From: Lepraria neglecta
Taxonomy: Eukaryota > Ascomycota > Lecanoromycetes > Lecanorales > Stereocaulaceae
Direction of reading: 5' to 3'
Length of the DNA stretch: 64,000 bases
NCBI GenBank assembly: GCA_033220425.1
Contig: CM065648.1
Span: 1,612,001 to 1,676,000, forward strand
Shown in pieces: positions 12,483 through 61,885 of the stretch. The notes beneath the pieces are model-generated. The model ran no database searches and had not been told where the DNA came from. It saw nothing but the letters and a program-made list of their open reading frames with translations. The number at the start of each line of letters is the position of its first letter. Position 1 is the first letter of the stretch. The position numbers and the translations under genes are program-made.

Positions 12483-12850
12483 TCTTTCTTCTAATAACAG
12501 ATTATCGCGATATTCGGAGCAATTCCGCACTTATAGCCAATTAGAACATCCCTTTAGAGCTGTATTTCCTCTCTCGGCTAGCGCCTTTAACCACCAAAAG
12601 TTGAATACGCTGCGCACTTCTTCGCAGTACTTCCCCGCGCTATATACATTATATAATATCGAGATAATTTCATAAGTTTTAGAGTCAATCATTAGCTTGC
12701 TTACGCATCAAGAATTTTTAGAATCGCCCTATTTACGCAAAAGTTATAAGCAAAAGAAGCGTTTTCGCCATGTTTTACAGGCAGCGCAAGCTCGGTAGTA
12801 AATGCCAAGTATTAAGCTTAGTATTTGCCTTCTTATTCAAATAAACTAGG
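12483..12850 (+). repeat. 5' terminal and subterminal region of Hb
   Basis: The 5' terminus is followed by TTCGGAGCAATTCCGCAC and one subterminal module (12590-12830: CTTCTTCGCAGTACTTCCCC, then AAAAGAAGCGTTTTCGCC). The same blocks in the same order open all the non-autonomous copies, where the module is repeated two to four times. Confidence 0.85.
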
Positions 12851-13379
12851 TAACTTATATCTATTCGGCGCTGTTACCTCTTATCCTAATTCAATAGCTC
12901 TAGAGACGTAAAGTATCTTTAGTCTTTATAATAGTATTTATAATTAGCGTACTATTACGCGTCAGCGGCGTTAGACGCCTGCTTTTACAGTATATATTAA
13001 TAATAGCGCTCCTGCCTCTACCTCGCGTCTAAAGCGTTAGAATTCGTCTACGGCCCTTATAGACGTTATAGAGAACGTAATCAACTGAGGGACAACTAAT
13101 TAGGGAAGGAAGAAACGTTCTAGGAATACTATAAGAGCTAGGGAGTTTAATATTACTACTATAAGTTAGTAGGCAGAAATACAAAATACGCAGAGGAGGT
13201 AGATTATTCGACCGCAGCAGCAGAATACCTATCTACGGCCTCGCTCTGCCTAATCAGGTATCTAATAAGTTATCCAAGTAGTCGTACCGCCCCGCAATCT
13301 AGAGGATTCGAGCCTACCTAAGTACCGAGATTCTTCCTCTAAAGAAGAAGCACCCTCGGCAGAACCGCAATATAACCTC

Positions 13380-15240
13380 CGCTAGAGATAGAGACACGCG
13401 CGGCAGGCACGAGAGAATAGCGAAGAACGTGCCCTACGTCAGCGGCGTCGCCGTCGACCGTATCAGCGCCGTAATACTATAGATAAGGGTAGCAGAACTT
13501 TACCTAGTACATATCTAAGTACTCGGCTACCGTAAGTATATATCGATCTTCTAGAATACGTTATACTACCGTAGTTCTTTGATCTAACTAATGAATATCC
13601 TTATTACTATACCTTCTCTTTCGAGGGTGAGCGTCTTTCTACTAAACGGTAGTAGTACTATTAGAACGGCATAATTAATATCTAGGCACCTGACTTACCT
13701 AACTTCGAATTCCTTAAACTACTACCCGAAGGTAATCCTAAGCGTTAAGTTCTTGCGCTGAACAAGCTATTTTATAAGGTAGAATATATATTAGATAGTT
13801 AGGACCGTATCCGGGACCCTTATTAGCCAGGGCAGTATAAGATAAAACGGACTACCCGCAGTGCTATGTTTATTAAGAGAGCCTTAAACTATAATAACCT
13901 ACTTTCTTTTACTAGTAAGGGCGTAGATAAGATAGATTACCGGGTTAGGCGGACTATATACAAGATCCAAGGGGGGATATATTACGCTATTAGTCCACTT
14001 TTGCCTGAGGAAGGCGTTACTAAGAGATACGCCTAGTACTACTTTATTAATACTAGCCAGGATTAAGTAGATACCTATATAACGTATACTAGGCAGGTCG
14101 AAAGATCTATTGATACGGATATAGTACTTCTTCTTCAGCGACTTCTTCGAGATATTAACCCCTATATATAGAGCTTTAAGACTTGCCGGGAACGCTTATT
14201 AGATAATAAGGTAAGATACCCTCTACAGACTATAAACGTCTATATTATACAACACAACCCTAGGCGTACTAATCGCGGTATATATAACCGCCCTATATCC
14301 AGTAAGGTGGCCTGTATTATAATTACTCCTCCCGACGGCGTAAAGGGACGTATCGCACGAGATATTCGTATTAAAGTCAAGGGTAGAGGCCTTATAAGGG
14401 TACCTGAATGGTACTTATCCTATATAGCCCTGCGGTATATCCTACCTTTCCCTTATAGGGAACAGAGCTAGTATAATAGTCTGCCGCTGCAGGGATATAA
14501 TAGGCTCCTAGAAGGATATCTCTTCGCTACCCGTAGGTTAAATATAAGGCAGGGAACTACTTAGCACCACGGCATATATTAGGACCCCGACCGGCCTAAG
14601 TACAGCGACAACGAGGAAGAGCCGGAAAGAGATAGAGCTACTCCGAGAGGTCGTAGAGGGTCTATACGGGTTACAAGGAGTTAGATCTATCGCTATTAGC
14701 TACAGGTGAGCCTATTCTATAGCTTTCAAACGTCTGCCCTTATATTAGTGAAATTACGTTTTCTAGTACTTTATATCTTTATATAGGATATTACGATCTT
14801 CTATTATTTTTCTTTTAAGAAGCGCCGCCCCCCTTCTATACTATATTAGTAATACCCCTATAAGCGCTAGAAATATAGCGCTTGATAGTAGTAGCTATAG
14901 ATATCGCCGTTGATAGTTATAGAAGATATATATTAGCCGATACAAGTAAGCTAGATATAGAGAAGAGTTTCGTTCTAAATGTAATTTATATAGAACTATT
15001 AATATATTACTTAAAATAGTACCAAAATAATCGACGACTAGCAAATTCACATTATATTTTTAAGTTTTCAAAACAAAATTTCTCTACGGGGTAGACCTCG
15101 CAAAATTTAATATTTTAAAGAATTCTTCTACTAATACCACAATAGTACCGTAAGGGTAGATTCTCTCGATTACTCTGTTCCGGGTATCTCCTTAGTCACT
15201 TCGTTACTAACGCTTACGCTACTATCGAATAGAACAACCT
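13380..15240 (+). pseudogene. Helitron protein, N-terminal region (decayed)
   Basis: This tract lies upstream of the Rep domain. An arginine-rich stretch is at about 13380-13480. At about 14170-14470 the plus strand reads VKGRGLIRVPEWYLSY and then ALRYILPFPYREQ, which resembles the 'LQYPLLFPYGEDG' part that precedes the Rep domain in Helitron proteins. Several in-frame stops are present (for example in the codons read as former glutamine or tryptophan). The assignment rests on that motif and on its position before Rep. Confidence 0.65.
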
Positions 15241-15249
15241 GAATTAGTA

Positions 15250-16878
15250 TATCAAGTATTAGTATAAAATTCGGGTGCTTAGCTATAAAGGCTTAGTCGA
15301 TCGACTATACGAGGATCTAGATCTAGGGCTCAGCGATATCGGCAGTAAGGTTACCATTCTGCCATCTAGTATGGCCGGTAGCCCTAGAGTTATAAAGGCA
15401 GATATAGAGGACGCTTTAATAGTAGTACGGTATCGAGGCAATCCTGCCTTCTTTATAACTTTTATATATAACCCGAACTAGGCTAATATCCGCTGTTTAA
15501 TTCGACCCGGTTTATCGACGACGGAGGTTTATAATATATAGGTACGGGTTTTTAATATAAAGCTCAGGGAGCTTCTTAAGGATCTTTTCGAGAGATATAT
15601 CTTAGGTATCTATATTAGTTATTACTATATAGTTGAATTTCAAAAGCGAGGTCTGCCGTATACCTATATCCTTCTTATCATTCGTGAGGAGGATAAAATC
15701 AGATATATCTCCTAGATCGATAACGCTGTATAGGCCGTTATTCCTGATAAGACGAAGGACCTAGTACTCTATAAGTTAGTAACTACTTATATAATCCATC
15801 GCTATTACTTAGCCTCTAATATCTACTAGGATAAAGAGAAGAATTAGTACTCCAAGTTCTTCCCTAAGGATGTTTACAATAAGTTATCGTTCGATCCTGA
15901 GGGAGTATACCTGTATTATCGACGCCCGTATATAGAGCCTACTCCGGAGGGCTATACTAACCAATAGGTCGTTCCCTATAACCCCTGGCTTCTAAAGAAG
16001 TACCGTACTCATCTAAATATTAAGATCTGCGCCTCCATTAAGTCTGTATTTTACTTATTCAAGTACGTCCACAAGGGTCCAGACCAGGCAAATATTTCGG
16101 TCACTCGATCAACAACGGTGCCTCAGGGGAACCCTGTACCGCCGGGGTAGCAATAGCTAGAGCCTCTATTAGTTAATAAGGTTACTGAATTCTACAAAAG
16201 TCGCTGGATAGGAAGCTCCGAGGCTTACTAGAAGATCTTTGGGTTTAGTATAGAGGGGATTAAGCCTTATATTAAACGGCTACAGATTCATTTACCTAAG
16301 GAGTAGCAGATTGGCGTCGATCTAGATAGGGAGACTACCGAGACTATTCTCGATAAGGACTTATTGCGCAAGATATAGTTAACGGAGTTCTTTAAGATGA
16401 ATTATCTTGCTAAGGAAGCCTTAGAGAACGATTAGCCTCTGCCGTTTAGAAGAAAAAACGGGTAACTATACCTTCTAGATATAAACCCCCTTGACTACCT
16501 ATATAACGAATTTCCTATATATTTCATATAGGATAAGAGGAAACGGATATAGTTTATTCGCGAGAAGGGGGAGGTAATTAGACATATATATATAATCAGT
16601 CCTAAGTAGGGTGATTTATACTATTACCGACTCCTTCTTACCTACTATCGGGGGGTAATATCATTCGATAATCTACGGACTATTAACGACGAGCTTCTAA
16701 TATATAAAGTAGCCTGCGTTCAACTTAGATTAGTAGAGAATAATAAGTACTGCGTTAAGGTACTAGAGGAAGTAAAGACTCTTTACTTACTAGTAGTACT
16801 ACGAGGTCTTTTCGTAACTATTCTATTAGAACTATACCCGGAGGACCCTTTAGCGCTTTGGGAGAAATTTAAAGCAAG
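15250..16878 (+). pseudogene. Helitron Rep (HUH endonuclease) domain, decayed
   Basis: The Rep domain nicks and rejoins single-stranded DNA during rolling-circle transposition. The stretch 15275-15481 reads SKVTILPSSMAGSPR and then FFITFIYNPN, the conserved start of the Helitron Rep-like region. The HUH motif should read H-x-H; here the plus strand reads EFQKRGLPYTYILL, with tyrosine codons at 15659-15661 and 15665-15667 where the two histidines belong. That is the change expected from CpA to TpA mutation. The two-tyrosine motif survives as YLFKYVHKGPD at 16052-16084. All three landmarks lie in one frame, interrupted by stops (for example TAG just after 15478). The product would be inactive. 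Confidence 0.88.
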
Positions 16879-17054
16879 GTATATATCTATTTTCATTACT
16901 ATAATCGTTGTTTTTCTATCCGAGTCAGACTATATTCTATATCCGGGTCGGACTATATTCAGCCGAGTCGAACTATATTCTCTATCCGAGTCGGACTATA
17001 TATTCTAACTATTAAAATAGTATATCGAACGACTATACCCGTATATTAAATAAG
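16879..17054 (+). repeat. CCGAGTCGGACTATATTC direct repeats between the Rep and helicase regions
   Basis: Four imperfect units of about 20 bp (about 16915-17005) carry CCGAGTCGGACTATATTC. The reading frame differs on the two sides: Rep and the WEKFKA end at about 16876 are in one frame, and the sequence from 17055 through the helicase is in another. The segment begins GTATATATC and ends TAAATAAG, so it could be a former intron, but a plain inserted repeat with a frameshift fits as well. Confidence 0.55.
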
Positions 17055-18790
17055 TGTTTTGCCTACCGTATAGATATCCTCCAGGACTATATAGATAAAC
17101 GCGTACAAGACCCAGTATTTCAAGCTGAGCAATATACTCTATATTTGATTTCTAGCCAGTTAGACTACTAGTCTACCGCCGAAAGTAGCCTCAGCCTCAA
17201 GCTATTTAACCTTCCGCCGGTTATTATTCCATTTAATCTTCTATATAAATCGCGAATTCGGAACTATCTACTTCGCGAAGAGATATCTTATAATATTATA
17301 CTAGAAGATATAGAAGTTGAATAGTAGAAGCTTAATACCGACCAACGCCTAGTAGCCGAAAAGATTATAGCGGCGGTAGATAAGAATAAGAATGATAAAT
17401 TTGGCACGGGCGTACTATTCTTTTTGAACGGCGCTGGCGGTACTAGGAAGACTATAGTCTAGAATACTATTCTGAAGAAGCTCCGGTCTTAGAAGCGTAT
17501 TGCTTTAGCGGTAGTATCTTCAGGTATCGCTATAACCCTATTAGACGATAGACGTACTACCTATTCGCGATTCAAGATCCTATTGGACGCTAAGAGTTTA
17601 TCCAGTTGCGGTATTCAGAAAGGGACTAACCTCGTAGAGTTAATTAAGCGGGCTTGCGTTATTTTCTAGGACGAAGTACCTATATAGAGTCATTTCGCCG
17701 TTGAATACGTTAGCCGTTCTTTACAGGATCTTTATGGTAATAACGGTACTTACTTTGGTAGTAAGGTCGTTTGCTTTGGCGGCGATTTCCGTTAGACCTT
17801 GCTAGTAGTCCCGGGGGGTACCGCAGGCGTTATTATTAATGCCTGTATCTAGAAGGCGGCGTTCTGGGACGAGGTGACTATTCTTCGCCTTACCACCAAT
17901 ATATATCTAAGTAATCGAGGTCTTACCGAAGAAGGCAGGCGGCGAATAGTAGAATTTACTAAAGCTCTCCTATATATTAGTAATAGTAAAGGTAATATAG
18001 TCGACCTAGTTACTAAGGATAAGAAGACTCCCTAGAAATATAGATACGTGCCTAAGAATACTATAGATATACTGATCGATAAAATTTATCCTACTATTGG
18101 TAGAGATCTTCCGGACCGGCGCTATCTAACTAAACAAGTAATTCTAGCTATTGTAAACAAGGATGTCCAGAGAGTAAACAACTATATTCTCGACCGTATA
18201 CGGGGCGACTACTATAAATACTAGAGTTTCGATCAGGCGGTGAACCCTGAGGAAAACGAGATGTTCCCTAACGAGTACTGGAATAAATTCTATAAGCCCT
18301 TACTACTACCGTATAAGCTACGGTTAAAGGTAGGGACGCCAGTAATGTTAATAAGGAACCTAGATACACCTCGTCTCTGTAATAGAACCCGTATTCTACT
18401 TACCGAATACGGGAGACACGTCCTCAAGGGTAATATTATAGGTAGGAGTTTCGACGGCAGCGAGGTAGTCTTATACAAGATCCCTTTGCAGTCCAAGGAT
18501 AGTAATAAGTATATCCCTACCTAGTTCACCCGCAAGCAGTTCCCTATACGCCCTACCTTCGCAATAACTATTAATAAGTCGCAGGGGCAATCGATAAAGT
18601 ATATAGGACTCAACCTACGGTCCCGTCCAGCGTTCACCTATAGGCAATTCTATATTAGTAACTCGCGTGTTACTATAGAGTCGAACCTATATATAATTAG
18701 TCTAGATTCGGATAACTATATTAGGTATAAGCTCATGAATAACCCGATCTACAAGTAGGTACTGCTGTAGGTCTAGTACTCGCACAACGG
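17055..18790 (+). pseudogene. Helitron PIF1-like helicase domain, decayed
   Basis: This superfamily 1 helicase unwinds DNA during rolling-circle transposition. The Walker A motif reads FFLNGAGGTRKT (17418-17453), where the usual GGTGKT has arginine. Motif II reads as a DEVP core at about 17671. The stretch 18240-18524 stays open and contains KVGTPVMLIRNLDTPRLCNR, the conserved C-terminal PIF1 block. [17 protein letters not shown] follows at about 18574-18624, the last helicase motif. Stops interrupt the domain in several places. The order Rep then helicase is diagnostic for Helitrons. Confidence 0.88.
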
Positions 18791-19152
18791 TTATAGCTAA
18801 TAGGAGTTTCTCGAAACGACGCTAAGCCTCTTTTAGAATATATATCAAACTCGTAGATTACGGCAATCGACTTTTCAGTAAGATTCGGGGTTAGATTTTA
18901 CTCGGTATAGCTATTACTTAGACTTATGAATAGCGGCGACTATATCTTAACGCTTAAAGATATCAGCCAATAAGCTTGCAGGCGTATAGATATGGGTTAT
19001 ATTATCGTCCCGGTATGGTTTCTTTATAAATAATCGCGATATTACTATTATATAACCTCACCGTCGATAGATACAAAAATAGGCATTTCGCGGACAAGGT
19101 CTCAGCCCTATACCAAGCCCGACTTTATGGCGCGCGTGTTCAGCCAATTAGA

Positions 19153-19189
19153 ATTTCACAGGCCTAGTACTAGCGTAGGCCTGTGAAAT
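19153..19189. repeat. Perfect 14-bp inverted repeat in Hb
   Basis: ATTTCACAGGCCTA (19153-19166) and TAGGCCTGTGAAAT (19176-19189) are separated by nine bases, GTACTAGCG. The stem extends outward through TAGA/TCTA with a small bulge. It lies about 275 bp before the 3' end, in a stretch (about 19070-19265) that is richer in GC and CA/TG than its surroundings. It is distinct from the terminal hairpin. Its role is unknown. Confidence 0.85.
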
Positions 19190-19430
19190 ATCTAGCCAAC
19201 TGGCGCTGATTCCGGACCCGAGAAATAGCTGAGCGCGCGCGTATTTTCAAATCCTGGACCTTTAGGCCCGCTCCTTAGTATTAAAATCTTACTATTTTAA
19301 TAACTTTAGAAGTATTAGAGTTAGAGCTTAACTTTATATATATAAAATATACTATAAATAGCGTGCTTTCTAACGCCGCTTAAATTTTCTAAATCAAGTA
19401 TAAAATAAGCGAGATATAGCCGGTTTTACA

Positions 19431-19464
19431 GTAATCTTCTGTGAAGATTACGGGCACTAACTTG
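19431..19464 (+). promoter_or_regulatory. 3' terminal hairpin and CTTG end of the Helitron
   Basis: The stem GTAATCTTC / GAAGATTAC with a TGT loop (19431-19451) is followed by GGGCACTAA and the terminal CTTG. Helitrons end with a short hairpin about ten bases from a CTRR terminus and stop transposition there; this family has CTTG in place of CTRR. The same structure ends Hc (26667-26700), He (29920-29949), Hf (30494-30525), Hg (59030-59059) and Hh (59619-59652). Confidence 0.9.
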
Positions 19465-24640: not shown

Positions 24641-24649
24641 GAACAAATG

Positions 24650-24880: not shown

Positions 24881-24881
24881 A

Positions 24882-26666: not shown

Positions 26667-27637
26667 CAAGTTAGTGCCCGTAATCTTCATAGAAGATTAC
26701 CGTAAAAACTACTATATCTCGCTTATTTTATACTCTATTTAGAAAATTTAAGCGGTATTAGAGAGCACTCTATTTATAGTATATTATATATATATAAAGT
26801 TAAGCCCTAACCCTAATATATCGAAAGTTATTAAGGGTTCAATATTTGAGTACTCCGGAGGCACTTCGGGGGTGACTACGGGGGTAGCTTCAGGGAACTC
26901 CGCAGGCAAAAACATGTTTTTTGAGCTTTCCTTAGCCAAATCTTAACCAAATTTCAAAAGTCGAACGGCGTTAGAAAGCGCATGCTTGGTTCCAAAACTC
27001 ATGAAATTATTTCGATATCATATGATCTATGTGGCGCGGGGCATTGCTGCGAAGAAGTTGCGGTGCGCATGATATTCTAGGGTCCGGGGGCGCCAAGCTT
27101 AGTGCTTAGTATCTGGTACCGCTAGAAAAATATGGCGAAAACGCTTCTTTTACTTATAACTTTTGCGTAAACAGACCGATTTTGAAAATTTCGACGGTGT
27201 TAGAAAGCGTATACTTGGTTCCAAAACCTATGAAATCATCTCGATATTATATAACGTATATAGCGCGGGGAAGTACTATAAAGAAGTTACGGTGCGTATT
27301 CAGCTCAATACTTGGCATTTACTACCGAGCTCGCGGTATATATAAAATATAGCGAAAACGCTTCTTTTACTTATAACTATTACGTAAATAGGCCGATTCT
27401 AAAAATTCTTGATACGCAAGTAAGCTAATGATTGACTCCAAAATATATGAAATCATCTCGATATTATATAACGTATATAGCGCGAGGAAGTAGTGCGAAG
27501 AAGTTGCGATACGAATTCAACTTTTGGTAGTTAAAGGCGCTAGCCGAGAGAGGGAATACAGAATATAGGGCTAATCTTATTGGCTATAAGTGCGGAATTA
27601 CTCCGAAAGTCCTTATAATCTATTATTAGAAGAAAGA
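26667..27637 (-). mobile_element. Non-autonomous Helitron Hc (971 bp) with mismatched flanks
   Basis: The 3' end is at 26667 (CAAG, the reverse complement of CTTG, with the hairpin just inside) and the 5' end at 27637 (reverse complement TCTTTCTTCTAATAATAG). The flanking bases are A and T. It holds several subterminal modules but no 33-bp array and no coding region. Its right flank is family A sequence identical to the flank of Hd (61137), so Hc and Hd derive from one insertion. Its left flank is family C (C1), so the two flanks come from different elements. Confidence 0.87.
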
Positions 27638-29949: not shown

Positions 29950-30237
29950 TATATCTATAAAGTACTTTAAATTCCTTTTCTAATAATATATAAATAGGTC
30001 TAAATATTAGTTACTTACTAGGTTCGAGTTTAATCTTATAATCCTATAGCTAATACTTATATAATACTTCTATATTTATCTCTTCCTCGAATAAGTATAC
30101 CTACTTACTATATTCCTAAGGGATAGAGAGTATATCGGTTCCCCTTATAACTCTTACTTTATTATCCTACTAACCTCTACTAGTAACTATAGAGTTAGAC
30201 TACCCTTTAGTACTATCCTTATATAAAGCTAAGGTAA
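29950..30237 (-). mobile_element. Family A fossil fragment A4', second part
   Basis: Continuation of 27638-28578 beyond Helitron He, in the protease to reverse transcriptase region. It ends where an A3-type LTR begins (30238). Confidence 0.85.
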
Positions 30238-46200: not shown

Positions 46201-48430
46201 TACCTCGATAATATCTTGATTTACTCTGAGAACAAGGAAGAATATATTAAGTATATATAGGATATTATCGAATGCCTATTATAGGTAGGACTACTCCTTA
46301 AACTAGAAAAGTGCGAATTCTATAGGGACTCTATCGAGTTCCTAGGATTTATAGTTAGTACGAAAGGTATTAGTATAAGCCTAGAAAAGATCAAAGCTAT
46401 AGCGGAATAGCCTATACTATAGGACGTTAAAGTAGTGCAAAGTTTCTTAGGATTTGCCAACTTTAATAGGAAGTTTATTAAGGGCTACTCTAAGAAAGTA
46501 CTTCTACTTACGGATATTACTAAGAAAGATATTAGATTTATATAGGGATAAGAATAATAAAAGTCGTTTAACACGTTAAAAAAAGCATATATAGATCTAC
46601 TAGTACTCTATACCTTTCAAGCTAACGAACCGGCTTATATTAAAATAGATACCTCGGATCTTATAATAGGAGTATACCTTTATTAAATAAAGGACTAAAA
46701 GTAGTATCTAGTTACCTACTTTTTACGAAAGATATTAGTAGTAGAATAAAACTATAATATATATAATAAGGAACTACTTACCGTAGTATATACACTTCAA
46801 AATTAGAGAGTATACGTAGAAAGCTACTCGGACTTAACTATCTTTACAGATTATAAGAATCTTTTTAACTTTATAATAACGAAAGAGTTAAATAGAAGAT
46901 AGGTTAGATAGTTAGAACTACTCGGATAATATAAGTTTAAGATAACCTATACCCTAGGGAAAGATAATAGTCGAGTAGATACGCTAAGTAGGCGATTAGA
47001 CTATATAGAAGAAAAGAACGTTATAGAACGACTAATCCTAAAACGACAAGCCGATAGATCATTGGTACTATATCAGGTATTAGCAATGACCCTTCGTATA
47101 TTAGGACCTGACACGACCGATAGGATTATAAGGGCCTACGATAACGATATATTCGCAATAAAGCTACGGCAGGATTAACTGGATTTAGTATTACTTAGAT
47201 ATTAGGATAAAACTTACTTACCTGATATATACGTTAAAGAAGTAATTAGGGATTACCACGATAACCTATTATAAGGCTACCCTGGAGTATCCAAGACTAT
47301 AGGACTCCTAGGACGAGGATACGCAGCGCCGAGGCTTCGGATACGCGTTGAGCAGTATATTAAAGAATATATCCAATACTAGTAGAATAAGTCTACAAGA
47401 CACGCTAAGTACGAGCAAACTCAATTTGCGCCTATACTAGAGTTACTATAGGATAATATCACGATAGACTTTATAGTTAAACTACTACCTTCGAAGGACC
47501 TAGCTACGTAGGATACCTTTAATTCAATTATAGTCATTATAGATAAACTTATAAAGTATACGATTATAATACCCTTCAAAGAAATATATAAGGCGGACTA
47601 GTTAGCCTTTATACTACTTGATAGGCTAATAAGGGATCACGGTATATCTAAATCGATAATATCTGATAGAGATAAGTTATTCACTTCTAATTATTGGAGA
47701 ATACTAATTATAGTAATTGGAACTAAACTTCGGATATTAACTATATACTATCTATAGACTAATAGATAAATAGAACGTATAAACTAGATAATAGAAGCGT
47801 ATCTAAGATACTATATAAACTAGAAACAAGATAACTAGGTTTTACTACTTCTAATAGTATAACTAGCGTATAACGACAAGAGGTTAGATATAACAGGCCT
47901 GACACTATTCTTTACCAACCACGGGAAGAATATAAATATATTTCTATAACCTAGGGAAGGACCTAATATAGAAAAAGCTTTAGTAAAAGTAGAAGAGCTA
48001 AAGAATTTGTATAAGGATATATAAAGGTCTATCGAAAGCTCTAACGATAAGTTAAAGGAATAGGTTAATAAGAAAAGAAAGAATATTCCTTAGCTTAAAG
48101 AGGGGGATAAAGTATACCTTCTAATAAAAAATATAAAGATAATAAGACTAAGCAAGAAACTAGATTATATTAAGGTTAGACTATTCTTAATTAAGAAGGT
48201 AAAGGGGGCTATTAACTATAAACTTAAGCTTCTACCTGACGTAAAGGTATATCCGGTATTCTATATCTTACTTCTGGAGCTAGTAGACTCTAATATACTA
48301 CTCTAAGAAACGTTTTATTATAATATTAAGGAAGAAATAGAGTATAAGGTTAAGAGGATCCTAGATAGAAGAAATTAGTTCTATCTAGTTAAATAGAAAG
48401 GGTATAACGAAACGGAAAATACCTAGGAAC
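43292..48430 (+). pseudogene. gag-pol fossil of B2
   Basis: Gag lies at about 43300-44990, protease at 45090-45370, reverse transcriptase at 45740-46280, RNase H at 46620-46850, integrase at 47140-48120 (the zinc-binding region near 47250-47385, then the catalytic core from about 47460) and a chromodomain-like end at 48320-48420. It is broken many times. It aligns block by block with B1 read in reverse and, more distantly, with A1. Confidence 0.87.
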
Positions 48431-49006
48431 CTCTTAGGAACCTTGCGGGGAATTGCGGGGAATACCTATAAGAGTTTCATCAGAGACAAGAGAAGACTAG
48501 TCGAAGCTCTCAGGGCCGTCTAGGCCGGGGGGAGGTCGAACTACTCAGAGCCGATATTGAATATTAAACCGTTAGGAGTATTAGAAGGAAGATCTTTGTC
48601 CTTCTCTAACTCCTTGATATTCTATAACTCGCGCTCGACTAACTTTTTCTCTTTATCCTAGATATAATCAAATTATAATTAAAGGCGTATAAATTTCGCC
48701 TACGTTTCCTTTATTTCTAACTAAGTATTATTACGTACTTTCTTAATACGACGTATCTCGTTAATAGATGCGACTAGGTTATACTTCTTGCCCGCAGTAA
48801 TATAGTTAGAATAACGATCTAAACGGACGCCTACTAAGTATTACTTATTACCCTTTATATAGAGAGTATAAGGACGTATTATAAATCTGGATAATTCGCT
48901 AGAAAGTTCTTTACGACAGATGATAGGGTCTTTAGAATAGATATTTCAACGAGGAGGTATAAAGGATAGATAGTTTCTCGGGATAAGAAATCTGGAGAGG
49001 GGGCTA

Positions 49007-49418
49007 GTATTAGAACTATTGGTTCTAATAGGACTATCCTGTAGGACAAGGTACTATAGATAGGACTAGTAGCTGAAGCGATAAGCGCGACGAGCGCGAG
49101 CGCTTATAGCGCTTAAGAATAATAAACGTAATGAGTGCGGGCGCTTATAACGCTTATAGAGTGCTTGGCAGGATTTCATATATCTATATATACAGGGCTC
49201 TGCCTACTATTTGGAATAGCGTGTTCAACTTGGTTGATCTTCCTGGTACTCCTTGCACTATACTTTACTAGTTATCAATATAGAACGTATTAACTACCTA
49301 CACCTAAGAAGACTGCCATTCTACCTGAGTAACTCCTCTCCTATAGAAGCATAAGATATACAATACCTATACCTAGTTATCGCACCGTTAGGTAAACGAT
49401 TAGACGTGGGTCGTAACA
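49007..49418 (+). repeat. 3' LTR of B2
   Basis: It is 412 bp long, the partner of 42881-43291, with the target duplication ACGAG directly after it. Confidence 0.93.
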
Positions 49419-49423
49419 ACGAG

Positions 49424-49739
49424 GAGAGTTATAGAGTAATAGTTTATTATTAGACGGGTACGCCCCCCTTACTATCGTATCGATAATAGCGAGAGTTAAA
49501 GGATTTAGAAATGTAACGGGGTCTAGGCATGCGTGACTAAGTAACTCGTATATTGGTTACTAGATAGACTAAATCCTAAGGAACCTAAATAGGAGTCCTT
49601 AGAGACAATATATTTATCGAGGGAGATTGTACCCTCGTATCAAACCGATCCACTCTGCGACTTGCGCTATCGTATAGCCGTACTAGAGGGATAGTCTCCC
49701 GAACCTAGTCTAGTATCTCTATAATCGGCCCTTACAACT
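49424..49739. other. Unassigned segment, possibly the LTR of C2
   Basis: This is the right-hand continuation of the DNA interrupted by B2. Together with about 42839-42880 it would give a piece of roughly 355 bp with TG...CA ends (TGGCCCGATAC on the left and GGCCCTTACA on the right). That is the size and end pattern of an LTR for C2, but no second copy is in the window to confirm it. It joins family A (A3) sequence abruptly at 49740. Confidence 0.35.
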
Positions 49740-50251: not shown

Positions 50252-51061
50252 TCTTTCTTCTAATAATAGATTATAAGGACTTTCGGAGGTATTCCGTACT
50301 TATAGCTAGTCAAAGTACTCCTATACTTTAGTAGTCGATTCCCTCTTTTAGCTAGCGCCGCCAAGCAAGAATATCAAAATCGAAATACGTATCGTAACTA
50401 CTTCGTAGTATTGCCCCGCGCCACATATGAAATATGATATCGAGATGATTTCATAAGTTTTGGAACCAAGTATACGCTTTCCAATACCGTCGAAATTTTC
50501 AAAATCGGTCCATTTGCGCAAAAGTTATGACCAAAAGAAGCGTTTTCGCCATGTTTTTCTAGCGGCGCAAGCTCGGTGGCAAATGCCAAGTATTAAGCTT
50601 GGCGCCCCCGAACATCAAAAGTTGAATACGCACCGCAACTCCTTCGCATTATATCCCCGCGCCATATACGTTATATAATATCGAGATTATTTCATAAGTT
50701 TTGGAACCAAGTATACGCTTTCTAATACCGTCGAAATTTTCAAAATCGGTCCATTGACGCAAAAGTTATGACTAAAAGAAGCGTTTTCACCATGTTTTTC
50801 TAGCGGCGCAAGCTCGGTAGCAAATGCCAAGCATTGAGCTTGGCGCCCCCGGACAAAAGTTGAATACGCACCGTAACTTCTTCGCAGCAATGCCCCGCGC
50901 CATATACGTCATATAATATCGAGATAATTTCGTGAGTTTTGGAACCAAGCATATACTTTCTAATACCGTTCGAATTTTAAAATTTGGGCAAGATTTAGCT
51001 AAGGAAAGCTTAAAAAACATGTTTTTGCCTACGGAGTTCCCTAAAGCTACCCCCGCAGCCG
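50252..51061 (+). mobile_element. Helitron Hh, 5' part
   Basis: It begins TCTTTCTTCTAATAATAG after GAGATCTA. The uninterrupted LTR sequence GATCTATTATATATAG is at 51214-51229, so the insertion was between A and T. It carries two or three subterminal modules that keep much of their CA and TG content. At 51061 it is interrupted by the LTR of A2, whose target duplication AGCCG is at 51057-51061 and 59453-59457. The 3' part resumes at 59453. Confidence 0.88.
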
Positions 51062-51574
51062 TGTTACGAACAGGTTGCGTGCTGGTATCGTATATAGATT
51101 AATTCTCAATAGGGATGGAGGTACAACCTAACAAGAGTATAAAGTAGGCTTCAAGTGATACTAAGCGGGTCTAGTATATAATTAGATAATATATATTTAG
51201 TATCTAGCCTAAGAGATCTATTATATATAGTAAACTATAAATAGGAAGTAAGTTGAGCACGATACTCTAAATAGTAAGTAGTGCTCCGTATATATAGATA
51301 TACGAAATCTATACCAAGTATTCTTGATCGCACTAATCGTACTAATTATACCTACGCTCATTATAACTACTACGCTTATCGCTTAATATACCAAGTATCC
51401 CTAATCGCACTAATCGCACTAATTGTACCTGCGCTCATTGCGACTACTACGCTTATCGCTTAATATACTAAGCCTTTAGGGTCTATCTAAGTCGGATACT
51501 AATTCGTCGACTCGAACTATAACGGGCACTATACTCCTTAAGTATATCCCTGATTATATTTCCTAATCGTAATA
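51062..51574 (-). repeat. 3' LTR of A2
   Basis: It is 513 bp long, beginning TGTTACGAACAGG on the plus strand. It has the two tandem units of about 75 bp (about 51330-51470) and the promoter-like block CTCCGTATATATAGATATAC (about 51286-51305). Confidence 0.92.
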
Positions 51575-54500
51575 TTAGCTCCCCCTCCTAGATTTCTCGT
51601 CCTAAGAAACTATCTATCCTTTATACTATCCTAATATATAAAGTATTTAGATAAATCGACTATCTACCGAACGGTGCTGGCTAGTAAGCTAACCGAAGTC
51701 GTAATACGGCTATATTCCCGATATGTTACCAGCGGCAAATAGTACTTAATAGGTATAGGATCCGATAGATATTCTAACTATATAGGTAGCGGTAGAAAAT
51801 ATAACCTTATAGTATTACTACTTAAGATATATTATATTAAGATAGAATAAAAGGAAGTATAGTTATAGTTAAAAACTATATATAAAGAGTTAGAGGAATA
51901 TATATAAAACTTAATAGAGGAGTCTATATATCTCTAAAATAAATCTATCTCTAAATATAGTATAAGTATACTAAAGACGAGAAGCGGAAAATCGTAGACG
52001 ATAAGATATAGAATATTAGGGAGTTAGAAGAAGACTAGCGGTCTACCCTAAACGTCCCTAGTAACTAGATATTTAACGTCTCGTCTAAACAGTTTGGCTT
52101 CCTAGATAGAACCAATTAGTCCTCCTTCTCGATTATTCCCGGAACTCCTATAGAAGGTCCTAGTAGTTCCGGAGGTTCCTAAGAGATTCCTAGATATTTT
52201 TAGTATTATTATATCCTTTCTATCTAACTAGATATTTCTAATTAATCTAATTTAGAATCCTTTTAACCTCGAACTCCGTTTCTTCTTTAATATTATAATA
52301 AAATATTTTCTATAAGGGTATATTAGAGTCTACTAGCTCTAAGAGTAAGATATAGAATACTAGATATACCTTAGCGTTAGGTAGAAGCTTAAGTTTATAG
52401 TTAATAGGTCCTTTTATCTATTTAATTAAGAATAGTCTAACATTAATATAATCTAGTTTCTTACTTAGTCTTATTATTCTTATATTTTTTATTAAGAGGT
52501 ATACTTTATCCCCCTTCTTTAGCTAAGGAATATTCTTTCTTTTCTTATTAATTCGTTCCTTTAGTTTAGAATTTAAGCTTTTAATAGATCTTTATATATC
52601 CTTATATAAATTCTTTAGCTTATCTACCTTTACTAAAGCTTTTTCTATATTAGGTCCCTCCCTAGATTATAGAAAAGTATTTATATTCTTTCTATAATTA
52701 GTAAAGAATAGTATTAGCTTTATTATATCTAATATCTTATTATTATATACTAGTTATACTATTAGAAGTAGTAATACCTAGTTATTCTATTTCTAGTTAA
52801 TATAGTACCTAAGATATACTTCTATTATCTGATTTATATATTCTATTTATCTATCTATCTATCTATAGATAGTATACTATTAATATTCTTAGTTTTATTC
52901 TAATTACTCTAATAAGTATCTTCTAGTAATTAGATATAAAGAGCTTATCTCTATCTAATATAATTAACTTTAGTATACTATAGTCCCTTATTAGCCTATC
53001 TAATAATATAAATACTAGCTAATCTACTTTATAGGTTTCCTTAAAAGGTACTATAATAGTATACTTTATTAGTTTATCTATAATAACTATAATTAAATTA
53101 AAGATATCCTAAGTAGCTAGATCCTTAGATAGTAGTAACTTAACTATAAAGTCTATTATAATATTATCCTATAGTAATTCTAGAACTAGTATAAATTATA
53201 TTTATCTATATTTAGTATATTATATAGACTTATTCTACTAGTATTAAATATATTCTTTAATATATTATTTAACGTGTACTCGAAGCTTTAGTACCGCGTA
53301 TTCCCTTTCTAGAAGCTCTATTATTTTAGTAACTCCCGAATAACCTTATAATAGGTTATTATAGTAATCCCTAACTACTTCTTCTATATATTACTTAGGT
53401 AGATAAGTCTTCTCCCGGTATTTAAGTAATACTATATCCAGCTAATCCTTTCTTAGGATTATTATGAATATATTATCTTTATAGGCCTTTACGATCCTAT
53501 TAGTTATATTAGATCCTATTATATAAAGGGTTATAGCTAATACCTAGTATAGTACTAATAATCTATTAGCTTCTTTCTTTAGGATTAGTTATTCTATAAT
53601 ATTCTTTTCTTCTATATAGTCTAATTACCTACTAAGGGTATCTACTTAACTATTATCCTTCTCTAGGGTATAGGTTATCTTAAACTTATATTAACCTAGT
53701 AGTTCTAACTATTAGACCTATTATCTATTTAACTCCTTTATTATTATAAATTTAAGAAGGTTCTTATAGTCTATAAAGATAGTTAAGTCTAAGTAGCTTT
53801 CTATATATACTCGCTAGTTCTAAAGTATATATACTATAGTAAGTAACTCCTTGTTATATATATTATAGTTCTATTCTACTACTAATATCTTCCTTAAATA
53901 GTAGGTAACTAGATACTATTTTTAGTCCTTTATCTAGTATAAGTATACTTCTATTATAAGATCTAATATATCTATTTTAATATAAGCTAGCTCGTTTATT
54001 TAAAAGGTATAGAGTACTAGTAGATCTATATATACTTTCTTTAATATATTAAATGATTTCTATTAGTCTTTTCCCTATATAAACCTAATATCTTTCTTTA
54101 TAATATCTATTAGTAGTAGTACCTTTTTAGAGTAGCCCTCGATAAACTTCCTATTAAAGTTAGCAAATCCTAAGAAGCTTTATACTACTTTAATATCCTA
54201 TAGTATAGGCTATTTAGCTATAGCCTTAATCTTCTCTAGGCTTATACTAATACCTTTTATACTAACTATAAATCCTAGAAACTCTACTAATTCTCTATAG
54301 AATTCGTACTTTTCTAGTTTAAGAAGAAGTTTTATTTATAATAGATATCTAAGGATATCCTATATATACGTAATATATTCTTTCTTATTCTTAGAATAAA
54401 TTAGTATATTATTAAGGTACGCTATCGCTATTTAATCTAAGTATATTTATATAATATTATTAATAAGTACTTAGTAGGTTACTAGTGCGTTAGTAAGTCT

Positions 54501-57295
54501 AAATAGTATTACTAGATACTTATAGTAGCTATATCTAGTTCGGAAGGTAGTTTTCTATTCCTCGCCTTCTTTTATCTAAATTAGGTTATATATACCTCTA
54601 AGATCTAGTTTAGTAAATATCTTTACTTTCCTAAGCCGGTCCTATAACTCGCCGATATTAGGTAAAGGGTATCTATTCTTAATTATAATATCGTTTAACT
54701 TTTAATAGTTAATATATAGCTATAAACTTCTATTCTTTTTTAGTATAAAGAGAATTAGATAATCTACTAGTAATTTAGATTCTCGAATAAATCCCTTTTT
54801 AAGGTTCTTATTAATATATCTATAAAGTACTTTAAATTCCTTTTCTAATAATATATAAATAGGTCTAAATATTAGTTACTTACTAGGTTCGAGTTTAATC
54901 TTATAATCCTATAGCTAATACTTATATAATACTTCTATATTTATCTCTTCCTCGAATAAGTATACCTACTTACTATATTCCTAAGGGATAGAGAGTATAT
55001 TAGTTCCTCTCTTAACTCTTACTTTATTATCCCGCTAACCTTTACTAGTAACTATAGAGTTAGACTACCCTTTAGTATAGTCCTTATATAAAGCTAAGGT
55101 AGTATATACCTTAACTAGTCTTCGGTTCGACTTCTTATCTACTATTAGACGCTATTAATATATAGGTATAATTCTAGTAATATTACTAGATCGATTAATC
55201 CTAAGTACTCCTCGAGCCTAATTAATTATTAGGTTATACTTCTTTAACTAAGGTATTCCTAAAATTATATAATAGATAGCTATCCTAATAATATTAAAGG
55301 TAATCTCATTATAGTAGCGCTGAATTATAATAGATAATAAAAGTATCTCTTCGTCTACCTTTCCTATTAATAGTATTAATCTATTAGCTATCTAGAGGTT
55401 ATACTACTATAACTTCTTTTGAGTTAGTATTCTAGTTATTTATACTAGATCTCGTAAGATAAAGTTTCTAGTAGCTCTAGAGTCTATTATTATAATGGTC
55501 CGCTGTCTATTAATAATCACTAGTATTTTTATATATATATCGTATTACGCGGAATATAGATATTATTTAGGGGTTAATATATTAATCTCTTTATAGCTAC
55601 CCCTACTATAAGGAATTACTCTTTTCCCTATATAGAGAGGAATCCTATAAGCTACTTCTCGAACTTGTATTTCTTATAGTTATTATATAAATATATATAC
55701 TACTATTATAGATGGTACTAGTTTACTTCTAGACTCTAACGTCTTATTTAGTTTCGATAGTATACTTTTTCCTTATCTTTCTTACGTAGGAAGTAGCTTA
55801 GTTATTACTTTCTTACTAAGTACTAAGAGTATCTATTATCCTTATACTTATAGTACTAGTAATTACTATAGGATGATTTTATTAGAACTCCTAGTTCTTT
55901 TCTATAATTAATTCTATAATAGTCGTAACTATTTTCTATATACTATCTCTAGTAGACTTCCTTGTATTTAGAGTAATAGTAGTTATATCTAAAGTCTAAG
56001 ATACTAAAATCGTTCTAGAATTCTCTTAGTCTTTCTTCCTCTAAGTACTCCTATCTCTCTTTAGATATAGTAGATCTAGGTTTAGATATTATCGGTAGTC
56101 CTTTTCTTTTGATTATAACTTCCTACTCTAATTCTTCCTTATCCTAATCCTATTTAGGTTACTTTCCCTAGGTATTACTACTATCTCTAATATATAGCTT
56201 CCCTATCTAAGTATTAGCTTTATTGTAAAGCTATTATTAGAGAACTCCTTATCTCCTAAGTTAGATTCCTCTTCTTATTACTAACTATAGACTTCGTTCT
56301 ATATTAGTAAGATTCTACTAGAATTACTATCCTAGTCCTATACTTTTTCTAGTACATTTAGCTACTATCGATATACTATATTTTTTAACTTATAGTCTCT
56401 AGTAAAGTAGCCTAGTTTACTATAGCTATAATATATAGATATTTTCTTTCTACCCCCTTACTACTTCTTACCCCTAGCTAGCCCTCTAAAGGCCTATTTA
56501 CCTTTTTTTCTCCGTAAAATCTAGTTCTATTAGCACTAGTCTATAAGGGTTATATTCTTTATAATCTAGGTAGTAGCTCTTCGATTTAGTAAAAAAGCTT
56601 AAGTATCCTATCCCGCTAACTCCTCTATTGTATCTTTTTTCTATAGTCCTTTTAAAAAACTTATTATTAATTTTAATTACTTCTTTAATTAGCTTATTAA
56701 GGGTATTAAGAATAATCTCTAACCTTATAAGTTTATCCTTAACGTTATCCTTTAGACCTCTTCGGTATATAGTTATTAATATATTATTATCCTAGTTAGT
56801 CTTTACTATATACTACTAAAACTAAGTTAAATACTCTAATATAGACTTCTTCTAAGTTAAGTACTAGATAGTTTATATTACTACGTTGACTTTATTAGAT
56901 AGTCCGAATATACGGCGGATTTCAAGCCTAAATATTACTATACTTTCTATATACTATTTAATCTTACCGTCCTTATTATTATCTTCTATATACTTCTTTA
57001 GGAATAGATTAACCTACTTTTAGGCTCTTCTATATAAGTAAGTAATAGTAAAGATAGAATATCTCTATATAGATATAAGGTCCCCTTAGAACTTTAGATA
57101 TAATAATATCTAGAATAGCTATCCCTCGAGCTTATCCCTCTCTCTATAGTATAAGTTAGGCTAGGCTATCTTAATATACCTACTAAGTCCTTTATTAATA
57201 GTAGGGCGTCTCTATCTACTTCCTCCTCCTAAGGAGCTTAGGGTAGGTACCCTAGGGTCTCTTAGTATAGTATTTATCCTTAAGGGTACTCAAAG
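51575..57295 (-). pseudogene. gag-pol fossil of A2
   Basis: On the minus strand: gag about 55600-57295, protease 55200-55500, reverse transcriptase 54130-54800, RNase H 53760-54000, integrase 52500-53500 and a chromodomain-like end 52200-52300. It shares its RIP-mutated state closely with A4 and much less with A1. It is broken dozens of times. Confidence 0.85.
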
Positions 57296-57415: not shown

Positions 57416-59059
57416 TTAGATAATAATAATAGATTATCGCGACTTTCGGAGGGTATTCCGCACTTATAGCCAATAAGATCGGCCCTATACTTCTCCCCCC
57501 TGATAGTACGCTTTTCGGCCTAGCGCCTTCAACTACCAAAACTTGAATTCGTACCGCAACTTCTTCGCACTACTTCCCCGCACTATATATATTATATAAT
57601 ATCGAGATGATTTCATAAGTTTTAGAGTTAATTATTAGCTTGCTTGCGTATCAAGAATTTTTAGAATCGGCCTATTTACGCAATAGTTATGAGCAAAAGA
57701 AGCGTTTTCGCTATGTTTTGCTTGCGTACCGTAACTTCTTCGCAGGACTTCCCCGCGCCACATATATTATATAATATCAAGATGATTTCATAAGTTTTAG
57801 AACCAAGCATACGCTTTCTAACACCGTCAAAATTTCTTCGCACTACTTCCCCGCGCTATATATATTATATGATATCGAGATGATTTCATAAGTTTTGGAG
57901 TTAATCATTAGCTTGCTTACGCATCAAGAATTTTTAGAATCGGCCTATTTACGTAATAGTTATAAGCAAAAGAAGCGTTTTCGCTATGTTTTGCTTGCGT
58001 ACCGTAACTTCTTCGCAGGACTTCCCCGCGCTATATACATCATATAATATCGAGATGATTTCATAAGTTTTGGAACCAAGCATGCGCTTTCTAACACCGT
58101 CAAAATTTTCAAAATCAGTCCACTTGCGCAATAGTTATAAGCAAAAGAAGCGTTTTCACTATGTTTTACAGGCAGTGCGAGCTCAGTAGCAAATGCCAAG
58201 CATTGAGCTTGGCGCCTCCGGACCCTGGAACATCAAAAGTTGAATACGCACCGCAACTTCTTCGCAGTAATGCCCCGCGCCACATATGTTATATGATATC
58301 GAGATAATCTTATCAGTTTTGGAACCAAGCATACGCTTTCCAATACCGTCGAAATTTTCAAAATCGGTCTATTTACGCAAAACTTATAAGCAATATTCGC
58401 ACATGGCGATATGGCGCCGGATTGCCTATTCGCACATGGCGATATAGCGATCATGGCACCGGATGGCTCATTCGCACATGGCGATATGGCGACGGATTGC
58501 CTATTCGCACATGGCGATATGGCATAGGATTGCCCATTCGGCACATGGCGATATGGCGGTAGATTGCCTATTCGCACAGTTGGCGATATGGCACCGGATT
58601 GGCTATTCGCACATGGCGATATGGCGGCAGGTTGGCTATTCGCATATGGAGATATGGCACCGGATTGCTCTATTCGCACATGGCGATATGGCGGTAGATT
58701 GCCTATTCGCACATGGAGATATGGCACCGGATTGCTTATTCGCATATGGCGATATGGCGGTATGCTGCCTATTCGTTCCGGGGGCATTCTAATAGCTTCC
58801 GGGGGCGAAAAGTATCCTGGAACCATCCAAACCATGCAAAGCTTCAAAGATTATTTCTGTATCCTAGAGCTATCTAAATAGCCAGCTCTTATATATACCA
58901 AAACCGTTGCTATTATATAAAGTTATAGGTAAGCTTATAATTTAATACTATAGATAGATTACTTTCTAATTTCGCTTAAATTTTCTAAATAGAATATAAA
59001 ATAAGCGAGATATATCCGTTTTACGATAATCTTCTGTGAAGATTACGGGCACTTACTTG
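57416..59059 (+). mobile_element. Non-autonomous Helitron Hg (about 1.64 kb)
   Basis: It is inserted in the 5' LTR of A2. The 3' end is the normal hairpin plus CTTG (59056-59059), followed by TTAGATAATATATATTTAG of the LTR. At the 5' end the usual TCTTTCT is absent: the sequence runs TATAATTAGATAATAATAAT, so the LTR bases TTAGATA appear on both sides. It has subterminal modules (about 57540-58380) with one more module set than He, and then the 33-bp array. It is very similar to He and Ha. Confidence 0.88.
58396..58782. repeat. 33-bp tandem repeat array in Helitron Hg
   Basis: Same unit order and same 42-bp variant as in He and Ha. Open frames over the array (58233-58847 minus, 58463-58792 plus) differ from those of He only by scattered transitions. 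Confidence 0.9.
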
Positions 59060-59452
59060 TTAGATAATATATATTTAGTGCCTAGCCTAAGAGATCTATT
59101 ATATATAGTAAACTATAAATAGAAAGTAAGTTAAGTACGATACTCTAAGTAGTAAATAGTACTCCGTATATATAGATATACGAAATCTATACTAAGTATT
59201 CTTGATCGTACTAATCGCACTAATCGCACCTGCGCTCATTGCGACTACTGCGCTTATCGCTTAATATACCAAGTATCCCTAATCGTACTAATCGTACTAA
59301 TCGCACCTGCGCTTATTATAACTACTACGCTTATCGCTTAATATACTAAGCCTTTAGGGTCTATTTAAGTCGGATACTAATTCGTTAACTCGAACTATAA
59401 CGGGCGCTACGCTCCTTAAGTATATCCCTAATTATATTTCCTAATCGTAACA
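59060..59452 (-). repeat. 5' LTR of A2, outer part
   Basis: Continuation of the LTR from 57296-57415 beyond Hg. It ends CGTAACA and is followed by the target duplication AGCCG. It closely matches the 5' LTR of A1 (30694-31203) reversed. Confidence 0.9.
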
Positions 59453-59652
59453 AGCCGTCCCTAAAGTACTAATATACTAAATCCTTAATAACTTTTACCC
59501 TATTAGGATTAGGGCTTAGCTTTATATATATAATATATACTATAAATATAGAAATTTCTAACGCCGATTAATCTTTTTTAATAGAGTATAAAATAACTAA
59601 TATATAGTTATTTTTACGATAATCTTCTGTAAAGATTACGGGTACTAACTTA
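59453..59652 (+). mobile_element. Helitron Hh, 3' part
   Basis: It begins with the A2 target duplication AGCCG and ends with the hairpin and CTTA (mutated CTTG) at 59649-59652. The next bases, TTATATATAG, continue the A3 LTR cut at 50251. Its reverse near-copy is Hf (30494-30693). Confidence 0.88.
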
Positions 59653-59928
59653 TTATATATAGTAGATACTAGATATAAATAGAAAGTTAAGCACGATACT
59701 CTAAGTAGTAAGTAGTACTCTATATATATAGTAATAGAAAATCTATACCAAGCATTTTGTTTATACGAGTCGAATATTGATTTATCTAAACTATATCCGA
59801 GTTAAATAAATCGAATATCGATTCGTCTAAACTAGACCCTACTAAGCCTATACTAGTTTATATACCCCTAATACGTTCTTATTAGTATATTCTTAGCTCT
59901 TAATAATATTACCTTAGCTTTATATAAG
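59653..59928 (-). repeat. A3 5' LTR, outer part
   Basis: Continuation of the LTR at 50094-50251, giving about 434 bp in total. It ends GCTCTTAATAATA at 59928 and borders A4. Its reverse near-copy is 30238-30493. Confidence 0.82.
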
Positions 59929-61136
59929 GATAGTACTAAAGGGTAGTCTAACTCTATAGTTACTAGTAGAGGTTAGTAGGATAATAAAGTAAGAGTTATA
60001 AAGAGAACCGATATACTCTCTATCCCTTAGGATATAGTAAGTAGGTATACTTATTCGAGGAAGAGATAAATATAGAAGTATTATATAAGTATTAGCTATA
60101 GGATTATAAGATTAAACTCGAACCTAGTAAGTAACTAATATTTAGACCTATTTATATATTATTAGAAAAGGAATTTAAAGTACTTTATAGATATATTAAT
60201 AAGAACCTTAAAAAGGGATTTATTCGAGAATCTAAATTACTAGTAGATTATCTAATTCTCTTTATACTAAAAAAGAATAGAAGTTTATAGCTATATATTA
60301 ACTATTAAAAGTTAAATAATATTATAATCAAGAATAGATATCCTTTACCTAATATTAGCGAGCTATAGAATTAGCTTAGGAAAGCAAAGATATTTACTAA
60401 ACTAGATTTTAGAGATATATATAACCTAATTTAAATAAAAGGAGGCGAGGAAAAGAAAACTACTTTCTAAATAAGATATAGCTACTATAAATATCTAGTA
60501 ATACCGTTTAGACTTACCAACGTACTAGTAATCTACTAAGTACTTATTAATAATATTATATAAATATACTTAGATCGAATAGCGATAGCGTACCTTAACG
60601 ATATACTAATTTATTCTAAAAATAAAAAAGAATATATTATATATATATATAATATCCTTAGATATCTATTATAGGCGAAACTTCTTCTTAAACTAGAAAA
60701 GTATAAGTTCTATAAAGAATTAGTAGAATTTCTAGGATTTATAGTTAGTATAAAAGGTATTAGTATAAGCCCTAAAAAGATTAAGGCTATAGCTAAATAG
60801 TCTATACTATAGAATATCAAAGTAGTATAAAGCTTCTTAGGATTTACTAACTTTAATAGGAAGTTTATAGAGGGCTACTCTAAGAAGGTACTTCTACTAA
60901 TAGATATTACTAAGAAAGATATTAGGTTTATATAGGGAAAAGACTAATAAAAGGTATTTAATATACTAAAGAAGATATATATAGATCTACTAGTACTCTA
61001 TACTTTTTAAGTAAATAAGCTAGCTTATATTAAAATAGATACGTCGGATCTTGTAATAGAAGTATATTTATACTAGATAAAGGACTAAAGATAGTATCTA
61101 GTTACCTACTATTCGAGGAAGATATTAGTAGTAGAA
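59929..61136 (+). mobile_element. Family A Ty3/gypsy fossil fragment A4
   Basis: Plus-strand protease to RNase H region (reverse transcriptase at about 60130-60700). It is heavily broken. It is the outermost layer of the nest, with A3 inserted at 59928/59929 and Helitron Hd at 61136/61137. It holds the empty site for He at about 60190-60205. Confidence 0.88.
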
Positions 61137-61885
61137 TCTTTCTTCTAATAATAGATTATAAGGACTTTCGGAGTAATTCCGCACTTGTAGCCAATAAGAT
61201 TAGCCCTATATTCTGTATTCCCTCTCTCGGCTAGCGCCTTTAACTACTAAAAGTTGAATTCGCATCGCAACTTCTTCGCACTACTTCCCCGCGCTATATA
61301 CGTTATATAATATCAAGATGATTTCATATGTTTTGGAGTTAATTATTAGCTTGCTTGCGCATCAAGAATTTTTAGAATCGGCCTATTTGCGCAATAGTTA
61401 TGACCAAAAGAAGCGTTTTCGCCATGTTTTGCTGGCAGCGCGAGCTCGGTGGCAAATGCCAAGCATTGAGCTTGGCGCCCCCGGACCTAGAACATCAAAA
61501 GTTGAATACGCACCGCAACTTCTTCGCAGCGATACCCCGCGCCACATATGTCATATGATGTCGAGATGATTTCATAAGTTTTAGAACCAAGCATGCGCTT
61601 TCTAATACCGTCAAAATTTTCAAAATCGATCTATTTGCGCAAAACTTATAAGTAAAAGAAGCTTTTTGCGGGCAGCGCGAGCTCGGTGGCAAATGCCAAG
61701 CATTGAGCTTGGCGCCCCCGGACCCTAGAACACCAAAAGTTGAATTCGCATCGCAACTTCTTTGCAGCGATACCCCGCGCCACATACATCATATGATATC
61801 GAGATAATTTCATGAGTTTTGGACCAAGCATGCGCTTTCTAACGCCGTTCGAATTTTGAAATTTGGCTAAGACTTGGCTGAGGAG
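61137..61885 (+). mobile_element. Helitron Hd, 5' part
   Basis: It begins TCTTTCTTCTAATAATAG after GTAGTAGAA. The uninterrupted sequence GTAGTAGAATAAAACTATAA is at 46738-46757 in B2. It has two or more subterminal modules with little RIP (many CA and TG retained). It is cut at 61885 by the LTR of B3, so its 3' end is outside the window. It is the same insertion as Hc in the other arm. Confidence 0.88.

Follow-up and report, generated by a model that had tools for sequence, protein, structure and literature searches.

What kind of element lies, several times over, in the repeats of a 64,000-base stretch of DNA (C3:1612001-1676000, hereafter the window), and how far do its ends and its target hold in the rest of the genome? 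The window belongs to a 42.0-Mb genome of 11 contigs, is repeat-rich and has a guanine plus cytosine content of 34.6%; genome size, composition and dinucleotides suggest both that the organism is a filamentous fungus and that its mutation pattern is repeat-induced point mutation (RIP). The first-pass annotation, made from the letters of the window, had described here a Helitron family which starts with TC, ends with CTTG and is inserted exactly between A and T. These three features hold across a genome-wide sample, and the identity as Helitron is supported by a copy inside the window which codes for RepHel and carries the same ends. The family has two defined ends, an A/T target and empty sites without target duplication, and its coding copy shares the ends of the short copies. 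With very high confidence, it belongs to the Helitron rolling-circle transposons and has a Helitron1-like (canonical) start, hairpin and target.

The sample consists of 94 loci and the window, that is, 313,221 non-overlapping bases, and each locus was included on account of perfect ends, of Rep or of one particular host repeat. First of all, the genome-wide search for the ends, which had been proposed as a check, gave matches far above the reversed controls: the 22-base 3′ end, with at most 3 mismatches, was found at 273 places in the genome and the 5′ end at 238, against 0 for the reversed control in each case. Within the sample, where the 5′-end scan looked for the family start TC with mismatches allowed and the 3′-end scan was made without use of the terminal bases, A/T junctions and CTTG ends prevail, and the outcome that would have refuted the family, target duplications or other termini as the rule, is not seen among the sampled copies. 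Both ends were recognized in 40 copies of 524-6,982 bp, 39 of which are shorter than 1.7 kb. The 5′ end is TC in 39/40, as in Helitron1, and the exception is the copy at 57416 of the window. A strict pattern of hairpin plus CTTGT gave no match and was taken as too strict.

The 3′ ends in the sample (n = 56) read CTTG in 50 cases and CTTA in five, while one is lost, running into other sequence; the next base is T in 54/56. Thirty of them had entered the sample through a pattern containing CTTG and are therefore unable to test CTTG, so that the 26 ends from loci not chosen by terminus are given separately: 20 CTTG, five CTTA and one lost. CTTA would be the expected product of a TG-to-TA change. 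When the hairpin was searched with a terminus-free pattern (275 matches with at most 3 mismatches), 89 among the 100 perfect hairpins listed were followed by AACTTG, CACTTG or TACTTG, and the three that were read among the remaining 11 were all CTTA. The perfect 23-base ends amount to 170, with C in 66, A in 63 and T in 41 at the variable base, in a search that covered C, A and T and not G. The hairpin itself has a core stem of 8-9 bp and a TGT loop, with 13-14 bases to the 3′ end, or 11 in the minimum-energy fold, which agrees with the place of the hairpin in Helitron1 (about 10-12 bases before the 3′ end); its folding z-score, calculated for one copy, is -2.75. The statement that CTTG follows nine bases after the hairpin is right for a 9-bp stem (GTAATCTTC/GAAGATTAC); the copy at 28579-29949 has an 8-bp core stem.

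As for the target, the base before the element is A in 40/40 two-ended copies and the base after it is T in 39/40, that is to say, the A/T target of Helitron1. A preference longer than A/T is unsupported, since TA/TA occurs in 17/40 copies and roughly 12 would be expected (an estimate from control frequencies). Empty sites were searched by joining the two flanks, with at most 60 bases from each, and comparing the product with the sampled DNA. A match had to reach at least 75% identity, at least 30 bases on each side and at least 11/15 matches per side, and had to be free of gaps up to 15 bases from the junction. A gapless empty site was obtained for 17 of the 40 copies (39 were testable, one having only 27 bases of left flank), and 16 of these 17 show plain insertion without target duplication; the seventeenth is the 57416 copy, with a 9-base repeat. 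These data also bear on another view, in which the short copies owe their spread chiefly to duplication of AT-rich host repeats and not to transposition of their own. Such spread does find an example in the window, where the copies at 27637 and 61137 lie at one position of a duplicated segment with flanks 98% identical, but the 40 two-ended copies differ in flanks and length and the 17 empty sites have differing junction sequences, which makes this view very unlikely for the family as a whole.

The element that connects these ends with an enzyme lies in the left part of the window, with the following features:

12483-19464, + strand: full-length Helitron of 6,982 bp, probably once autonomous, with TC...CTTG ends, A before it and T after it.
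15149-16885, + strand: decayed Rep (HUH nuclease) region (PF14214, 3.7e-25; Helraiser 7lcc_A, 2.1e-68).
17304-18680, + strand: decayed helicase region of PIF1 type (PF05970, 6.5e-48; PF21530 (Pif1_2B), 4.4e-9), with Walker A GAGGTRKT.
19432-19464, + strand: 3′ hairpin TAATCTTC-TGT-GAAGATTA and terminal CTTG of the full-length copy, from the end scans.

A coding copy with Rep HUH nuclease and PIF1-type helicase, which is the mark of the Helitron superfamily, is thus present, though broken by stops: six TAG stops fall inside the PF14214 match. In the alignment with Helraiser, both HUH-histidine positions are occupied by Tyr, whereas the Y2 motif still has its two tyrosines (YLFKY). The composition is RIP-like, with a TpA/ApT of 1.53. 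The empty site of this copy lies in the C1 segment 3237282-3241445 (91.7% over 120 bp), and the outermost 120 bases at its 5′ and 3′ ends are as near to the other copies as all copies are among themselves (medians 84% and 90%). It is the likely parent of the short copies. In the genome, 26 Rep loci were found and 25 of them contain stops; these 25 are one family, with 87-94% DNA identity to the window copy over the main matches, and all are RIP-like. A perfect 3′ end on the same strand follows 1.5-7 kb downstream in 8/26 Rep loci, four of them at 4,245-4,400 bases, compared with 1/26 on the opposite strand.

The remaining Rep locus, L009 (C6:351480), with an intact RepHel, was considered as the live partner of the family and set aside, although this is not final. 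Its protein and that of the window copy are 28% identical, L009 is missing from the DNA matches to the Rep region of the window copy, and in the 1.5-12 kb downstream of it no perfect 3′ end of this family lies on the same strand. The locus is open from 1459 to its end (1459-3537), without a stop in the matched stretch, its composition is normal and not RIP-like, and a Cys is aligned to the first tyrosine of the Helraiser Y2 motif; in Helraiser, according to the available part of PMC4778049, mutation of either Y2 tyrosine abolished transposition. L009 is regarded as the RepHel gene of another Helitron family.

With the coding copy at hand, two further explanations can be weighed. The family might be of Helitron2/Helentron type, for which the terminal inverted repeats are asymmetric and the target sites different, as has been reported for most Helitrons of filamentous ascomycetes; the genome looks fungal, and of the fungal Helitrons examined in PMC5148889 the majority, within the portion available, group with Helitron2. 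However, insertion takes place at A/T, and a comparison of the first 40 with the last 90 bases of the 40 copies revealed no terminal inverted repeats, asymmetric ones included, the mean longest exact match being 6.1 against 6.03 in shuffled sequence. Moreover, the Rep region matches that of Helraiser, whose ends are given as TC...CTAG at A/T (PMC4778049, in part). A Helitron2-type family is therefore highly improbable. The other explanation is a miniature DNA transposon of a different kind, for instance one moved by cut-and-paste through an unrelated transposase, with the hairpin a coincidence. The small size of 39/40 two-ended copies would suit it, as would the 9-bp repeat that flanks the 57416 copy, but the other 16 empty sites are without target duplication, the terminal inverted repeats are missing, and the RepHel-coding copy has the same ends together with an empty site of its own. 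This explanation is already largely refuted, and its remaining likelihood is close to nil.

Several observations weigh against the classification as a Helitron1-like Helitron, or limit what the sample says about it. The sampled DNA is less than 1% of the genome. No qualifying empty site exists for 23/40 copies, one of which is short of flank, and several have one-sided or gapped matches; for two of the 17 copies with an empty site, most of the matching places are gapped near the junction (7/11 for C1:27558 and 10/11 for C3:207392). One empty site reads G/T (C2:5562589), one two-ended copy has a 3′ flank that begins with A (C1:1207148), and in the 57416 copy the 9 bases TTAGATAAT recur immediately after CTTG (59060-59068), resembling a target duplication. 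Same-strand perfect ends also lie upstream in 5/26 Rep loci, and therefore nearness alone is a weak link between enzyme and ends. Among the 26 Rep loci found, none is a stop-free RepHel of this family, and mobilization in trans is therefore put forward only as an inference. Finally, the ends depart from the strict CTRR (50/56 CTTG, 5/56 CTTA); the family is therefore filed as a Helitron that is Helitron1-like in its start, hairpin and target, and not as a textbook CTRR family.

The structure of the element agrees with the model for canonical Helitrons, and by analogy with the Helitron family a course of transposition can be proposed. The RepHel enzyme, of which a mutated copy stands in 12483-19464, would nick at the 5′ TC end; one strand would be peeled off, perhaps with a circle intermediate, and the rolling-circle transfer would terminate at the 3′ hairpin and CTTG. 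The freed strand would then be joined between A and T of the new site, leaving the target unduplicated. The short derivatives retain these ends, and their movement presumably took place in trans.

In the window, the remaining insertions and sites of the family are as follows:

1-1461, - strand: short Helitron copy that begins with TC at 1461, preceded by A, and runs past the window edge to a 3′ CTTG about 180 bases outside (C3:1611818).
26667-27637, - strand: short Helitron of 971 bp, TC at 27637 and CTTG at 26667; the 5′ junction matches empty host copies.
28579-29949, + strand: short Helitron of 1,371 bp, the sole clean two-sided insertion proved within the window.
30494-30526, - strand: 3′ end of an old copy, CTTA in place of CTTG, from the end scans; no 5′ end was found by the scans used.
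50252-51060, + strand: short Helitron with 5′ end intact and 3′ end lost; the 5′ junction matches the empty copy 51214-51229.
54813-54830, + strand: empty site that corresponds to 28579-29949, the host repeat being uninterrupted here, by junction reading and flank comparison.
57416-59059, + strand: short Helitron, comparable on both sides, which has kept its CTTG end but has other sequence in place of its first 9 bases.
59620-59652, + strand: 3′ end of an old copy, CTTA, within the duplicate of the segment carrying 30494-30526.
61137-61885, + strand: short Helitron with 5′ end intact, cut by long terminal repeat (LTR)-type sequence, at the same host position as 27637 (-).

Five in-window comparisons with empty sites had been brought forward, four of them as clean cases. 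The insertions are real, and the clean two-sided case is 28579-29949 alone, one rather than four. (The labels Ha to Hh had no coordinates and were matched through the coordinates of the empty sites.) Its junctions are TTCTTATTAA/TCTTCTTATAATAATAG...GGGCACTCACTTG/TATATCTATAAAG, that is, A/TC...CTTG/T, and over 120 bp the joined flanks and the uninterrupted host copy 54755-54874 have 100% identity; another host copy near 60195 reads identically across the insertion site. The in-window proof was overcounted because the copies at 27637 and 61137 share one host position, the 50252 copy shows its 5′ junction only, and the 57416 copy is anomalous. The two empty copies 46738-46757 and 53871-53890 both represent this one host position, which is filled at 27637 (-) and 61137 (+), and since the flanks agree in 98% over 941 bases, the two are most simply one event, copied along with the host. 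In the 27637 case the host repeat is not continued in the 3′ flank, and the 61137 copy, interrupted at 61885/61886 by the LTR-type sequence, again offers the 5′ junction only. At 50252 the junction is AGAGATCTA/TCTTTC, compared with AGAGATCTATTATATAT in the empty copy, and the 3′ part is lost near 51060.

Among the in-window cases, only the 9-base anomaly of the 57416 copy runs against the A/TC...CTTG/T rule. Its first 9 bases (57416-57424) are the TTAGATAAT mentioned above, where the family start TCTTCTTAT is expected; it looks as if the start had been cut off and a 9-bp piece of target duplicated, in 1/40 two-ended copies. The copy at 1-1461 is 96.9% identical to 57423-58876.

Some structures of the window touch these copies. 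An inverted duplication relates 26929-31082 to 59060-61884, with host parts 96-98% identical and a Helitron at the same position in both halves. The 28579 insertion is in one half only and the 57416 insertion is at the edge of the other half, and this placement gives a relative order of events. A minisatellite-like array with units of about 33/67/135 bp (ATTCGCACATGGCGATATGGC...) occurs at 101-483, 29284-29665 and 58394-58775, inside three short Helitron copies and beside 175/273-bp repeats. Related LTR-type retroelements occupy 4153-10694, 42878-49424 and 61886-64000, of which the third is the one that interrupts a Helitron copy at 61886; that at 4153-10694 is strongly RIP-like in composition and is marked by direct repeats with a length of about 411 bases and an identity of 95.9%.

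A further question is why the coding copies are ruined. The RepHel copies were probably inactivated by RIP. Many short copies sit in already mutated repeats yet look largely clean: the composite RIP index is below 0 in 31/39 short copies and above 0.5 in 32/39 flanks, both being true for 26/39, and its median is -0.44 in the copies against 1.39 in the flanks. As 8/39 short copies are not clean and 7/39 flanks are not RIP-like, the contrast is strong and not universal. It can be proposed, tentatively and at less than even chances, that RIP has split the family, in such a way that all RepHel-coding copies (25/25) were ruined and most of the short, divergent derivatives (31/39) stayed clean, the family surviving only as non-coding copies, many of which would have moved after the mutation of the host repeats.

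The duplicated pair is instructive in this respect. Between the 27637 and 61137 copies, 48 differences have T/A in the former against C/G in the latter, 33 of them in CpA/TpG context, compared with 16 differences in the opposite direction, 7 in that context. The host flank of the pair differs at 18/941 bases (2 in CpA/TpG context), and the duplicated host further along at 40/1,132 bases, 18 in CpA/TpG context, so that the host is poor in RIP targets and not free of them. Some of the stretches that distinguish the two copies are not RIP-like, and exchange between repeats may therefore have contributed. If the split by RIP is true, this pair would serve as a natural clock, in which the host had little RIP target left and one Helitron was still hit after the duplication. 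The contrast between ruined coding copies and clean short ones offers a way to test what RIP does to transposon families.

The family is a new Helitron family of a known type. Among the papers listed on Helitron ends, RIP and canonical Helitrons of Pezizomycotina, none was recognized as dealing with it, a result of little weight. The CTTG end itself is not new: the first-pass annotation was right that it departs from strict CTRR, while such ends had already been published for Helitrons (PMC4289320, PMC4778049). The comparisons that follow are taken from those parts of the cited papers that were available. It has been reported that HELPO2 of Pleurotus ostreatus inserts at A/T and ends with CTTG (PMC4289320), and therefore strict CTRR does not bound the Helitron1 group in print. 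HELPO2 resembles the present family in its A/T insertion, subterminal hairpin, CTTG, RepHel protein in the family and frequency in retrotransposon-rich regions, but it is a basidiomycete family, likened here by its published description (PMC4289320). For maize Helitrons, CTTG has been reported as well, by citation within PMC4778049, and some insertions from Helraiser donors with the palindrome or the end deleted also ended in CTTG (PMC4778049).

Helraiser/Helibat1 of bats shares the TC start, the A/T target, a palindrome 11 bases before the end and a homologous Rep domain (PMC4778049; PDB 7lcc). In contrast, its normal end is CTAG, and it is a reconstructed active element, compared with stops in all 25 Rep loci of the family here (PMC4778049). 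The FoHeli elements of Fusarium oxysporum are likewise Helitrons with RepHel in a filamentous fungus, and their ends were fixed through empty sites, while RIP marks have been reported in Helitron copies of F. solani (PMC5148889). However, FoHeli is of Helitron2 type: its inverted repeats are asymmetric, its ends read, for example, ATTTT or CTCCTGT, and its targets differ (PMC5148889). The present family is one whose target and start are canonical and have been fixed through 17 empty sites, in a genome that looks fungal; this helps annotation where the tools demand CTRR, and it is a further case of CTTG as a working end. Helitron1 has also been recorded in Pezizomycotina, namely in families of Pezizales that carry a TET/JBP dioxygenase gene (PMC12730594).

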